Positions 40,522 through 43,705 of a DNA stretch of 64,000 bases are shown here, piece by piece. Both the position numbers and the translations under genes were made by a program. The notes beneath the pieces were generated by a model, which saw only the letters and a program-made list of their open reading frames with translations, was not told where the DNA came from and ran no database searches. Source of the stretch: an uncultured Blautia sp. Its GTDB lineage: Bacteria; Bacillota; Clostridia; Lachnospirales; Lachnospiraceae. The stretch spans positions 1 to 64,000 of the forward strand of contig NZ_CAKRXI010000001.1 of assembly GCF_934424005.1 (NCBI RefSeq), in the 5' to 3' direction. Numbering within the stretch: position 1 is the first letter of the stretch; the number at the start of each line of letters is the position of its first letter.

Positions 40522-41409
40522 ATGCCAAACGTAACAGGACATACAGAATTAGTAGGATTAATGGCTTACCCGATCCGTCATACACAGTCACCAACAACTC
40601 ACAACCTCGCATACGACAAAAACGGTGATGATGTTATCCAGCTTGCATTTGAAGTAGATAATGATTCCCTGAAAGATGCTGTTCAGAGTATCCGTGCGCT
40701 CAAAATGCTTGGATCAAACATCTCTATGCCAAACAAAACAGTTGTTCACAAATATCTGGATGAAGTTGACGAGGCTGCCAAGTTATGTGGCGCGATCAAT
40801 ACGGTTGTAAATATGCGTGACGAAAACGGACAGGTTACAGGAAAGCTCAAAGGCTACAACACTGACGGTATGGGATACTGGCAGGGACTTACCGAAGAAG
40901 GCATTGATTTCAAAGGAATGAAGATGGTTCTGATCGGAACCGGCGGAGCTGCAACTGCAATCGCTGTACGTGGAGCACTTGACGGAATCGCTGAGATCGA
41001 AATCTTCAATATCAAAGACAAATTCTACAGCCGTGGAGAAGAAATCGTAGATCTGATCAATAAGAACACAAACTGTAAGGCTACAATGAACGATCTTGGA
41101 GATCTTGATCTTCTCAAAGAAAAAATGCACGCAGCAGATTTGTTCTGTGATGCAACAGGTGTAGGAATGCACCCACTGGAAGACCTTTCCAATATTCCGG
41201 ATCCTTCTTTCTTTAAGAAAGACCTGATCGTAACAGATACAGTTTATGCACCACGCGAAACAGTTATGATGAAACAGGCCAAAGAAGCAGGCTGCGAAAG
41301 AGTTTACAATGGTATGAGCATGATGCTGTTCCAGGCTCTGATCGCAATCAAACTTTACACTGGAAAAGATACTCCGGTAGATTACATGAAAGAAAAACTT
41401 GGAATCTGA
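40522..41409 (+). CDS. YdiB-like quinate/shikimate dehydrogenase, copy 1
   Basis: 295 residues. Oxidises quinate and/or shikimate to the 3-dehydro acid. The substrate loop reads YPIRHTQSPTTHN, with Thr where AroE has Ser, a change seen in quinate-active enzymes. The catalytic Lys is in MPNKTVVHK (~residue 72) and the paired Asp in GYNTDGMG. The nucleotide fold has GTGGAATA. Where NADP enzymes carry an Asn-Arg-Thr/Ser clamp, this one has FNIKDKFYSRGEE, like the NAD-using YdiB. So NAD-linked quinate/shikimate oxidation is predicted. ATG 40522 is preceded by AAGAGGAAA; the frame open to 40435 crosses the hairpin leader. A terminator follows. Confidence 0.88.
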   Translation: MPNVTGHTELVGLMAYPIRHTQSPTTHNLAYDKNGDDVIQLAFEVDNDSLKDAVQSIRALKMLGSNISMPNKTVVHKYLDEVDEAAKLCGAINTVVNMRDENGQVTGKLKGYNTDGMGYWQGLTEEGIDFKGMKMVLIGTGGAATAIAVRGALDGIAEIEIFNIKDKFYSRGEEIVDLINKNTNCKATMNDLGDLDLLKEKMHAADLFCDATGVGMHPLEDLSNIPDPSFFKKDLIVTDTVYAPRETVMMKQAKEAGCERVYNGMSMMLFQALIAIKLYTGKDTPVDYMKEKLGI

Positions 41410-41555: not shown

Positions 41556-42356
41556 ATGATAAAACTTATTGTGACAGATATAGATGGAACACTTGTAAAA
41601 GATGGGACTCTGGATATCAATCCGGAATATATGGATGTGATAAAGATGCTTACAGAAAAGGGGATACATTTTGTGGCATGTTCCGGCAGACAGTACTGCA
41701 GTGAAAGACAGTTGTTTGCACCGGTAAAAGACAGGATCTTTTTTATTTCAGATGGCGGTACTCTGATCCGTACATCTGAGAAAATATTAAAGGTTCATAC
41801 ACTGTCTGCTGAAATCTGGAAAAATATGGCGAGAATGGCAAAGAAAGAAATGCCGGGATGTGATTATTTTATTTCCGGCCCGGATGTCAGTTATGCGGAG
41901 AATGCGAAAACACCAATGTTTCGCTGGTTACATGACTCTTATGGATATGATATAAGAGAAGTGCCTGATTTATTGGAACCTTCCTTTGAAAATGAACAGA
42001 TTATGAAGATTGCTATCTACAATACAGATCATTGTGAAGAAAAATGCGCTCCGGTTTTTACGCCTTACTGGAAAGATAAAGTCAACATGGCATGTGCGGG
42101 AAAGGAATGGATGGACTGTACACCACATGGCGCAGATAAGAAGTCAGCGGTTGCCTTTTTACAGGAGTATCTGGGAATTGCACCAGAAGAGACCTGTACT
42201 TTTGGTGACAATATCAACGATATTGAAATGCTAAAAAATGCCGGATACAGTTATGCAGTTGCAAATGCCAGAGAGGAAGTACAGGCAGCAGCCAAAGCAG
42301 TCTGCCCGTCTTATCTGGAAGACGGTGTGCTACAAGTGTTGAAGAGTTTACTGTAA
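41556..42356 (+). CDS. Cof-type HAD-superfamily phosphatase
   Basis: 266 residues. The catalytic motif IVTDIDGTLV lies at residues ~4-13, the second in FVACSGRQ, and the last in TFGDNINDIEML, with a Cof-type cap between. These enzymes dephosphorylate sugar phosphates or cofactors; the substrate cannot be told. ATG 41556 has GAGGAG at 41543-41548; the frame open to 41541 starts in that ribosome site. It lies within the quinate/shikimate cluster but has its own upstream region, so its link to the pathway is uncertain. Confidence 0.88.
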   Translation: MIKLIVTDIDGTLVKDGTLDINPEYMDVIKMLTEKGIHFVACSGRQYCSERQLFAPVKDRIFFISDGGTLIRTSEKILKVHTLSAEIWKNMARMAKKEMPGCDYFISGPDVSYAENAKTPMFRWLHDSYGYDIREVPDLLEPSFENEQIMKIAIYNTDHCEEKCAPVFTPYWKDKVNMACAGKEWMDCTPHGADKKSAVAFLQEYLGIAPEETCTFGDNINDIEMLKNAGYSYAVANAREEVQAAAKAVCPSYLEDGVLQVLKSLL

Positions 42357-42409
42357 GGTGGTTCAAGGCAAATGCCAAAAATGACAGGAGGTTTTGTGAC
42401 AGTTTGGAG

Positions 42410-42438
42410 TTGATTTTTTATCGGCAATAGCATATGAT
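42410..42438 (+). promoter_or_regulatory. Promoter of the candidate antitoxin RNA
   Basis: TTGATT (42410-42415), 17-base spacer, TATGAT (42433-42438). No open frame follows; the transcript would start near 42445 and stop at the hairpin at 42482-42515. Confidence 0.6.
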
Positions 42439-42444
42439 AATAAC

Positions 42445-42516
42445 AGCTAAGGAATGTGATGAGATTCCATGAAGCAAAAACGAAAGCCCCCAGAGTTGCA
42501 GCTCTGGGGGCTTTCT
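42445..42516 (+). ncRNA. Candidate antitoxin RNA of an Fst/par-like type I system
   Basis: A predicted RNA of about 70 bases, convergent to the small peptide gene. It contains TGTGATGAG (42455-42463) and TTCCATGAAG (42465-42474), each repeated exactly at 42626-42634 and 42641-42650 inside the toxin gene. Because the toxin is read from the other strand, these repeats make the RNA complementary to the toxin mRNA over its start codon (10 bases) and over codons 5-7 (9 bases). Both transcripts end in the same bidirectional hairpin. This is the arrangement of the par/Fst systems of enterococcal plasmids. Transcription itself is not shown. Confidence 0.7.
42482..42515. terminator. Shared bidirectional terminator of the type I toxin-antitoxin locus
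   Basis: GAAAGCCCCCAGAG (42482-42495) pairs perfectly with CTCTGGGGGCTTTC (42502-42515), 14 bp around a 6-base loop. On the minus strand it is followed by GTTTTTGC, on the plus strand by TTGCTCGTT. Confidence 0.88.
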
Positions 42517-42556
42517 TGCTCGTTACGGTGAGCTATTCCGTTTAGGCTGTTGCTGC

Positions 42557-42646
42557 CTATCGTCTGCCGCTCAGCCATTTGCATATGTAGTAGCTAACTA
42601 CGTTTGCTATCACGGAGACAAGAAGTGTGATGAGTATTTCTTCCAT
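42557..42646 (-). CDS. 29-residue hydrophobic peptide, candidate type I toxin
   Basis: An open frame too short for usual gene finding: it begins MEEILITLLVSVIANVV and ends YYICKWLSGRR. An acidic start, one ~18-residue membrane-spanning helix, a Trp, and a basic tail are the usual build of small membrane-acting toxins such as Fst, Ldr or TxpA. A strong Shine-Dalgarno (AAAGGAGG) lies 10 bases before the ATG but is buried in a perfect hairpin (42653-42678). An extended -10 promoter lies upstream at 42690. The direct repeats, convergent RNA and shared terminator support type I control. It could instead be an ordinary small membrane protein, but the gene layout argues against that. Confidence 0.75.
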   Translation of the reverse strand: MEEILITLLVSVIANVVSYYICKWLSGRR

Positions 42647-42652
42647 GAAGTG

Positions 42653-42678
42653 CGAACCTCCTTTCTGCTGGAGGTTCG
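42653..42678 (-). promoter_or_regulatory. Hairpin hiding the toxin ribosome site
   Basis: CGAACCTCC and GGAGGTTCG form a perfect 9-bp stem with an 8-base loop. In the minus-strand mRNA the 3' arm is the Shine-Dalgarno GGAGG itself, so translation would need the stem opened. Sequestered ribosome sites are a defining trait of Fst-type toxin mRNAs. Confidence 0.85.
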
Positions 42679-42689
42679 ACAGCTCTTTT

Positions 42690-42698
42690 ACTATAGCA
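42690..42698 (-). promoter_or_regulatory. Extended -10 promoter of the toxin gene
   Basis: On the minus strand TGCTATAGT gives an extended -10 element (TG-n-TATAGT), about 45 bases before the toxin start. No good -35 is visible. Confidence 0.5.
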
Positions 42699-42746
42699 TG
42701 CTTTAGAACAAAATGGAACATAGAGGAAATAAACAGAAAATAATCT

Positions 42747-42775
42747 TTGCTTTATCACTTTAAATCGTGTATAAT
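42747..42775 (+). promoter_or_regulatory. Promoter of dehydrogenase copy 2
   Basis: TTGCTT (42747-42752), 17-base spacer, TATAAT (42770-42775). It diverges from the toxin promoter. Confidence 0.65.
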
Positions 42776-42838
42776 ATTTTTTATATTCAGGCGAGAGTGA
42801 AATCGTCAAATTTTGATACGCGGAAAGGAAAATGGATT

Positions 42839-43705
42839 ATGTCGAAACATATCACAGGACACACCGGATTATTATGTTTACTTGGAAGCCCGGTCGCACA
42901 CAGTGTTTCCCCGGAAATGCATAATGAAGCATGCGATCAGCTGGGACTGGATTATACATATCTTGCATTTGATGTACCGGAAGATAAAATGCCGGAGGCA
43001 GTACAGGGACTTCGTACGATGGGAGCAAGAGGATGGAATATCACCATGCCAGGCAAGAACATTATGTGTAAGCTTGCAGATAAAGTATCCCCTGCATCTG
43101 AGATTTCAGGAGCATGTAATACCATCGTTAATGACAATGGTGTTCTGACGGCATACACAACAGACGGTGTCGGATTTATGAGAGCTGTCAAAGAAGACGG
43201 CGTTGATATTATCGGAAAGAAGATGACTCTTCTCGGTGCTGGTGGAGCTGCAACTGCAATTCTGGTACAGGCCGCACTGGATGGAGTTGCTGAGATCAAT
43301 GTATTCAACGTAAGAGATAACTTCTTCGCAAGAGCAGAAGAGATCGTTGCAAAACTGAATGAGCGCACAGAGTGCAAAGTAACATTGCATGATTTTTCCG
43401 ATCCGGAGGTCCTGCGTGCATCCATCGCTGATAGTGCAATTCTTGTAAATGGTACTTCAGTAGGTATGGCACCGAATGTAGACAGAACGATCATTACAGA
43501 TACAAGTATGTTCCATAAAGATCTGTTTGTATTCGATGTAATCTATAATCCGCAGGAGACACGTTTGCTTCGTGAAGCAAAAGAAGCAGGATGCAAGACC
43601 GGTAATGGAATGTACATGCTGCTGTACCAGGGAGCTGCTTCCTTTAAACTGTGGACCGGGGAAGAGATGCCGGTTGAAATTATTAAAGAAAAATATTTCT
43701 CTTAG
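42839..43705 (+). CDS. YdiB-like quinate/shikimate dehydrogenase, copy 2
   Basis: 288 residues, paralogue of the 40522 gene. The substrate loop is GSPVAHSVSPEMHN, keeping both Ser residues as in shikimate-specific enzymes. The catalytic Lys is in MPGKNIMCK and the Asp in AYTTDGVGF, where the usual Asn before Thr-Asp is Thr. The nucleotide fold GAGGAATA is followed by FNVRDNFFARAEE, again the YdiB-like, NAD-type pattern. The Ser/Thr difference from copy 1 suggests split preference: copy 1 for quinate and copy 2 for shikimate; that is inferred. It has its own promoter and is followed at once by the structured RNA region. Confidence 0.88.
   Translation: MSKHITGHTGLLCLLGSPVAHSVSPEMHNEACDQLGLDYTYLAFDVPEDKMPEAVQGLRTMGARGWNITMPGKNIMCKLADKVSPASEISGACNTIVNDNGVLTAYTTDGVGFMRAVKEDGVDIIGKKMTLLGAGGAATAILVQAALDGVAEINVFNVRDNFFARAEEIVAKLNERTECKVTLHDFSDPEVLRASIADSAILVNGTSVGMAPNVDRTIITDTSMFHKDLFVFDVIYNPQETRLLREAKEAGCKTGNGMYMLLYQGAASFKLWTGEEMPVEIIKEKYFS

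Follow-up and report, generated by a model that had tools for sequence, protein, structure and literature searches.

Does the gap between two shikimate dehydrogenase-like genes of a Blautia chromosome hold a complete type I toxin–antitoxin unit, and, if so, is it a new family or a member of a known one? The window (the whole stretch of 64,000 nucleotides analysed here) carries these two genes at 40522–41409 and 42839–43705, together with a HAD hydrolase gene, and the preliminary description had placed a complete Fst/par-like locus at 42410–42698, adding that it ‘may be a new family’. The elements of the unit are the following.

42698–42690, minus strand: toxin promoter, extended −10 TGCTATAGT (TGC TATAGT), read from the sequence
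42480–42683, minus strand: predicted toxin mRNA of about 204 nt (from ~42683 to ~42480), extended −10 to terminator, folded
42653–42678, minus strand: 5′ hairpin (inverted repeat) pairing the Shine–Dalgarno sequence (GGAGG, 42661–42657)
42557–42646, minus strand: toxin gene, 29 codons, peptide MEEILITLLVSVIANVVSYYICKWLSGRR, from the open reading frame list and its translation
42641–42650, minus strand: DRb target, toxin start codon and codon 2, TTCCATGAAG, from a repeat search
42626–42634, minus strand: DRa target, toxin codons 5–7, TGTGATGAG, from a repeat search
42482–42515, both strands: terminator hairpin common to both RNAs, 14 bp with a loop of 6, from a consensus scan
42410–42438, plus strand: antitoxin promoter TTGATT-17-TATGAT, from a consensus scan and aligned in close relatives
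42445–42516, plus strand: predicted antitoxin RNA of about 72 nt, promoter to terminator, folded
42455–42463, plus strand: repeat DRa in the antitoxin RNA, TGTGATGAG, from a repeat search, with concerted changes in relatives
42465–42474, plus strand: repeat DRb in the antitoxin RNA, TTCCATGAAG, from a repeat search

On the toxin side, the anatomy is as it had been described. The 29-codon gene for a single-span hydrophobic peptide is in the list of open reading frames, and the peptide has a membrane span (judged by eye), then a Trp and a charged C-terminus. The extended −10 lies upstream of it, though with a weak −35. The arms of the leader hairpin are perfect over 9 nt (42653–42661 and 42670–42678) and the Shine–Dalgarno GGAGG lies within the 3′ arm of the mRNA; in the predicted fold of the ~204-nt toxin mRNA its pairing probability is 0.9997. 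This fold gives a pairing of 3 bp only at the position of the 5′-end helix (5′-UH), and the terminator loop of the window contains no U-turn (YUNR).

Two other signs are also present, with qualifications. A convergent promoter with 17-base spacing is present; the number of consensus promoter matches in 42000–43200 (five observed against 3.0 expected) is near chance, so the consensus alone is unremarkable, and it is conservation in close relatives that supports a putative promoter here. No reading frame was said to follow this promoter, but plus-strand open reading frames of 29 and 20 codons do overlap the small RNA; they are presumably due to chance. As for the perfect 14-bp bidirectional terminator, the stem and the T-tract on the toxin side are confirmed, whereas the T-tract in the antitoxin direction is weak: the scan accepted the full stem with its T-tract in the toxin direction only (GTTTTTGC).

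The two repeats, said to occur in both transcripts and to cover the toxin start codon and codons 5–7, are indeed found there. When the antitoxin leader was subjected to dinucleotide shuffling, two words of 9 nt or longer in common with the toxin 5′ region arose 0 times in 20,000, and one or more such words 226 times in 20,000. Duplex prediction, which had been proposed as a check along with folding, agrees: the leader–toxin duplex is at −30.4 kcal/mol, below all 1000 shuffles (mean −15.0, sd 3.0, lowest −27.1), the energies being those of simple duplex folding of 50–60-nt pieces. The longest-word test is less extreme for the window's own pair, which is equalled by 2.7% of swapped pairs.

The repeats vary among units, yet match inside each unit. 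This can be read directly in the alignment of close relatives, where DRa changes on both sides of the unit: it is TGTGATGAG in the window, TGTGACGAG in locus L121, TGTGGTGAG in L120 and AGTTGTAAG in L122. Thirteen loci were aligned, and L135, L001 and L188 were omitted because they are truncated or almost duplicate others. Over the remaining ten, the two sides of a unit agree at 169 of 190 repeat positions, a value equalled by 0 of 20,000 permutations. The match of DRa is 0.94 with its own partner and 0.65 with swapped partners, and that of DRb 0.82 and 0.58, respectively. A search of relatives for conserved or co-varying repeats, also proposed in the preliminary description, thus supports the reading of this clostridial unit as a complete chromosomal locus of the Fst/par-like kind: the layout recurs and the repeats change in concert.

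The same holds in larger sets. Among 112 non-redundant loci, the longest common word averages 11.6 nt within a locus compared with 5.9 nt between loci, and in 96 of them the own pair ranks among the best 5% of swaps. Our first hairpin rule put the terminator in the wrong place in several loci, including L043, L120 and L188; with an improved rule, 185 of the 188 units with full flanks have a hairpin of at least 10 bp, with a median stem of 15 bp, and these were used for the energies. The 185 units include related copies and four units entered with two starts; 181 are distinct within a locus, and there are 182 different peptides. In this set the own duplex is at −38.0 kcal/mol compared with −19.0 kcal/mol for swapped duplexes, and it is below all 30 swaps in 159; some of the 26 units that fail to beat all swaps have misassigned starts or hairpins. 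Start codons and hairpins were assigned automatically, with some errors. In 13 of 188 units (L022, L027, L030, L032, L033 and others) the chosen start is ATA, ATC or ATT, with no better codon near the Shine–Dalgarno sequence; these are either weak start codons or script errors. A subgroup, L151 (genome G337), L153 and L181–L183 (G404), for example LIDTFINLSLSVVAGVISYYICKWLDRQ, is without a self-matching antisense RNA where one is expected, and L151, L153, L182 and L183 (G337, G404) show no self-match whatsoever.

Several genomes carry many units, some of them in head-to-tail arrays of three to six, with a period of ~330–450 bp in several (L155, at 474–2913, which overlaps L049; and L160, L161, L164, L108 and L078). 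Almost all array units open to assignment have their own RNA as best partner. In 13 genomes or loci, each taken by itself, the best partner of a toxin 5′ region is its own RNA in 53 of 54 cases, the one miss being L164@1769, and the computed energies are −37.5 kcal/mol for own and −17.4 kcal/mol for cross duplexes (54 units, 228 cross pairs). This count omits all G404 loci (L181–L183, no self-match); L161@506, L078@1519, L156@9, L155@1325 and L128@2008, which are misassigned, cut or degenerate, although L155@1325 and L128@2008 may be genuine units that lack a self-match; L177 (for which no hairpin was identified) and L108@2433 (hairpin not found, near the end of the locus); L120 and L188 (misplaced hairpin); and L095 (a duplicate of L160). 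With the omitted units included, the means are −34.2 kcal/mol for own (n = 67, duplicates in) and −17.3 kcal/mol for cross duplexes (n = 312). Repeated on the 185-unit set, with less complete genome lists, the test gives 39 of 41, and both misses come from L237 counted with two starts. Type I pairs of Clostridioides difficile are mostly specific in experiments, according to the available extracts of PMC6563280. Pair specificity as such is thus already known; its basis in two short recoded repeats is readable here from the sequences.

How widely is this unit spread? A tblastn search with the window peptide matched 11 phage and 33 plasmid records (E up to 10, many weak), the plasmid matches being in Streptococcus, Ligilactobacillus, Aerococcus, Enterococcus and several gut Clostridia. 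Twelve of these 44 records were examined, and all 12 have a downstream hairpin and, beyond it, a word of 9–13 nt in common with the toxin 5′ region; L009 is a weak case among them, with a chosen hairpin 146 nt away and a match that looks fortuitous. At the DNA level, plasmids gave one short partial match only and phages one near copy (the record of L001, 81%). In genome contigs, 494 stretches fitted the search pattern and 423 relatives were confirmed, with 79 loci kept, and a scan of viral contigs gave 28 loci from 64 stretches. By their labels, the hosts of the genome-scan relatives are chiefly Lachnospiraceae and other Clostridia, and also Veillonella, Phascolarctobacterium, Selenomonadaceae and Anaerococcus; one relative, L056, comes from a bin labelled Paludibacteraceae. 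In sampled genomes, relatives were found in 21 of 64 for the genus of G002 (labelled Blautia wexlerae), with 1–7 copies (E up to 1e-5), in 62 of 200 for its family and in 15 of 398 for its phylum (E up to 1e-3).

Across these relatives, a downstream hairpin of at least 9 bp is present in 119 of 120 loci, and the Trp is invariant among 38 aligned members. Hiding of the Shine–Dalgarno sequence is in mild excess only: its mean pairing is 0.83 compared with 0.77 in shuffled leaders, and it exceeds 0.8 in 122 of 183 units compared with 73 of 183 (mean of ten shuffles). A U-turn (YUNR) is seen in 34 of 185 loops on the toxin side and 25 of 185 on the antitoxin side.

To which family does the unit belong? 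The extracts of PMC7472228 give as the signature of the Fst/Ldr superfamily a Trp between the membrane span and a charged C-terminus, and describe the par layout as convergent RNAs, a common terminator, two repeats and a hidden Shine–Dalgarno sequence. Because the window has both this Trp and this layout, we consider it very probable that it holds a par/Fst-type type I toxin–antitoxin unit, a new member and not a lone new family. The earlier suggestion of a new family is not supported, given the published Trp signature and a match of the toxin mRNA of this clade to Rfam SpF66, a pneumococcal RNA that adjoins an annotated Fst toxin. With the par locus of pAD1 and the Fst subfamily, as far as the extracts describe them, the window shares convergent RNAs, a common terminator, repeats over the toxin start, a Shine–Dalgarno sequence in a 5′ stem-loop and a Trp before a charged tail. 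It differs from them in its peptide, which at the position of the XXXG-type motif reads SVIAN, with N replacing G, and ends in the tail SGRR, in having no U-turn in the terminator loop and in matching no NCBIfam Fst model. The P/D/S/TXXXG motif is ascribed in the same extracts to ‘the majority’ of Fst members and stands outside the defining signature, the loop U-turn is absent from some accepted members, and Fst occurs in commensal Clostridia (PMC7472228). Relatives with the motif exist: L042 reads SVLAG and L043 SVIAG.

Protein models are of little help. The NCBIfam Fst model NF033608 does not match the window's peptide; eight of 38 relatives match it at E up to 10 (best E 1.3e-4), and two of ten relatives scanned again reach 12.3 and 16.4 of 26 bits. 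On whole genomes it is over its cut-off in 0 of 12, with nine of 14 controls matching and one of 14 over the cut-off, so its weak matches are unspecific. Pfam has no family for the window's peptide and none reached E 0.001 for the 38 relatives; weak Pfam matches of the relatives were set aside (DUF2158 in 16 of 38, LydA holin in eight of 38 with best E 0.0016, Ldr_toxin in five of 38 with best E 0.03). A PDB search returned no useful relative, only one chance-level match at E 1.5. The model of C. difficile type I toxins, NF047374, gives 12.5 of 60 bits (E 0.15, below cut-off) with the window's peptide and weakly resembles 17 of 38 relatives at the N-terminus (best E 2.4e-5), and PHROG_738, which has no assigned function, matches 29 of 38 relatives (best E 1.4e-5) and the window's peptide (E 1.1e-4). 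Either these similarities connect toxin families that have been regarded as unrelated, or they reflect hydrophobicity in common. The C. difficile toxins likewise form convergent type I pairs, but they have 50–53 residues and a long overlap with the antitoxin (PMC6563280, in extract).

The RNA gives more. Rfam RF02442 (SpF66) matches the window's toxin mRNA over its full length, with 26.3 bits and E 1.5e-4 in a 321-base search, against a cut-off of 42. Among 12 plasmid and phage loci, L009 (102.9 bits), L007 (93.8) and L004 (65.1), all Streptococcus/Aerococcus members, are over the cut-off and four more match less strongly. In genomes it matches 11 of 12 and is over the cut-off in three of 12, compared with two of 14 and 0 of 14 controls, respectively; its stronger genome matches coincide with toxins found by the peptide profile, and several at E >0.05 do not. 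RF02442 appears to be the strongest tie of the window's clade to known Fst members. Other Rfam matches (ctRNA_pGA1, sar, ctRNA_p42d, His_leader and BTnc005) were set aside, being centred on the terminator hairpin.

From this match, SpF66 itself appears to be a toxin mRNA of the window's clade. In Rfam and in the available extracts of the sRNA papers it is filed as a small RNA and not as a toxin mRNA. F66 (srn502) is described there as a 239-nt RNA of S. pneumoniae TIGR4 that gives a northern signal and whose disruption lowers nasopharyngeal fitness (PMC3395615); the adjoining F67 is annotated as an Fst toxin (PMC12323649), and in D39V two Fst antitoxins are annotated in the F66/F67 region (PMC6212727), again according to extracts. 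For F67, despite its Fst annotation, a trans target is predicted in an extract of an sRNA paper.

Two further sets of Fst units are close in kind. Fst-Sm/srSm of Streptococcus mutans, for which toxicity and neutralisation are reported, has the same layout with RNAs of ~200 and ~70 nt (PMC3543317, in extract), but its peptide has an AP..(A/V)G motif. The Fst-like sequences of Clostridium bolteae and C. asparagiforme come from an in silico search (cited in PMC6563280, in extract); they are likewise in Clostridia and may belong to the same clade. Among the open-licence papers found on type I toxin–antitoxin systems with Lachnospiraceae or Blautia, none describes Fst units there in its title or at the start of its abstract; an earlier mention of the clade is possible.

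The stretch from promoter to promoter (~42400–42720) shares 84–87% identity with the units of L134, L120 and L121; the flanks of these three show no alignment with the window. At the equivalent site of G048 (L243), the first aroE-like gene (93%) and the HAD gene (75%) are followed by a divergent unit, ~14 kb of other genes and the second aroE-like gene (86%); the ~14-kb insert has ORFs that by eye resemble transporter and recombinase genes. At that of G027 (L132), the first gene (90%) is followed, with no HAD gene between, by another unit and then the second gene. The alleles of the window, G048 and G027 each pair best with their own RNA (−32.4, −43.8 and −36.8 kcal/mol, respectively; off-diagonal −22.6 to −29.8 kcal/mol). 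Allele exchange between copies and fast concerted change would both explain the divergent, self-matched alleles that two related species have at one site.

A different function could be served by the same RNA circuit: the antisense-controlled membrane peptide may be no toxin at native levels and act as a regulator or transporter modulator. The chromosomal position among metabolic genes (two shikimate dehydrogenase-like genes and the HAD hydrolase gene) would suit such a role, and the extracts of PMC7472228 call the functions of chromosomal Fst obscure, with some tied to sugar metabolism. We nevertheless hold this to be rather unlikely, as plasmid and phage relatives, tandem arrays and allele-specific antitoxins suit addiction better than a conserved metabolic role, and a unit is present at the G027 site even though the HAD gene is missing there.

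Horizontal transfer could also have left the window with a family member that has decayed or fallen silent. Decayed-looking members do exist, such as L188, without a toxin 5′ leader, and the stretch 529–613 of L122, an antitoxin without a toxin. In the window, however, all elements are intact and the repeats match, and the identity to the L134, L120 and L121 copies does not extend to their flanks; decay is thus improbable. That a terminator, a short open reading frame and two coincidental repeats came together by chance would fit the promoter matches, which are near chance level, but this has to face the 0 of 20,000 shuffles and the covariation in relatives, and we give it practically no weight.

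We thus return to a par/Fst-type toxin–antitoxin unit. Its anatomy, its covariation, its spread and, by computed energies, its pairing specificity are seen in the sequences, and we infer transcription, a translation block, toxicity and an addiction role by analogy. The minus strand would yield the ~204-nt mRNA for a 29-residue membrane peptide, and in the free mRNA the 5′ hairpin is predicted to hide the ribosome site. The plus strand would yield the ~72-nt RNA II ending at the common terminator. If the order is that of pAD1 and S. mutans, the RNAs would first meet at their complementary terminator stem-loops and then at DRa/DRb; this second contact would cover the start codon and codons 5–7 and, as in pAD1, block ribosome entry. 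A drop in RNA II, which would be labile as in pAD1 and S. mutans, would let the peptide be made and damage the membrane. Each copy appears to fit its own RNA, since the two repeats change in concert.

A broader picture seems to us about evenly balanced between right and wrong: gut Firmicutes would hold dispersed and tandem banks of par-like units, up to about ten per genome, that act like incompatibility groups, their repeats recoded in concert so that each unit answers only its own RNA; fixed chromosomal sites, such as the aroE-like gap, would keep a unit while its allele is swapped, and F66 would encode one of these toxins. One locus has in any case led, in one scan, to a large natural data set (423 confirmed relatives) on the evolution of RNA antitoxin specificity, in which two short repeats change together and the remainder of the unit changes little. 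Of most interest are the tandem banks, with their mutually specific pairs. A pneumococcal small RNA for which a colonisation phenotype is reported would, on this evidence, be a toxin mRNA. The units are poorly annotated in Pfam, NCBIfam and the plasmid gene table: none of the 20 plasmid matches listed (of 33) overlaps an annotated gene, in a gene table that is incomplete.

Finally, it should be noted that the orphan antitoxin of L122 (529–613) has its own promoter and terminator. None of the 185 units offers it a strong target (best −31.0 kcal/mol, best in its own genome −27.1, median −18.3), and an anti-addiction role is therefore unsupported. It lies ~900 bp from a full unit, just upstream of a gene that reads like, and is presumably, a uridine phosphorylase gene.
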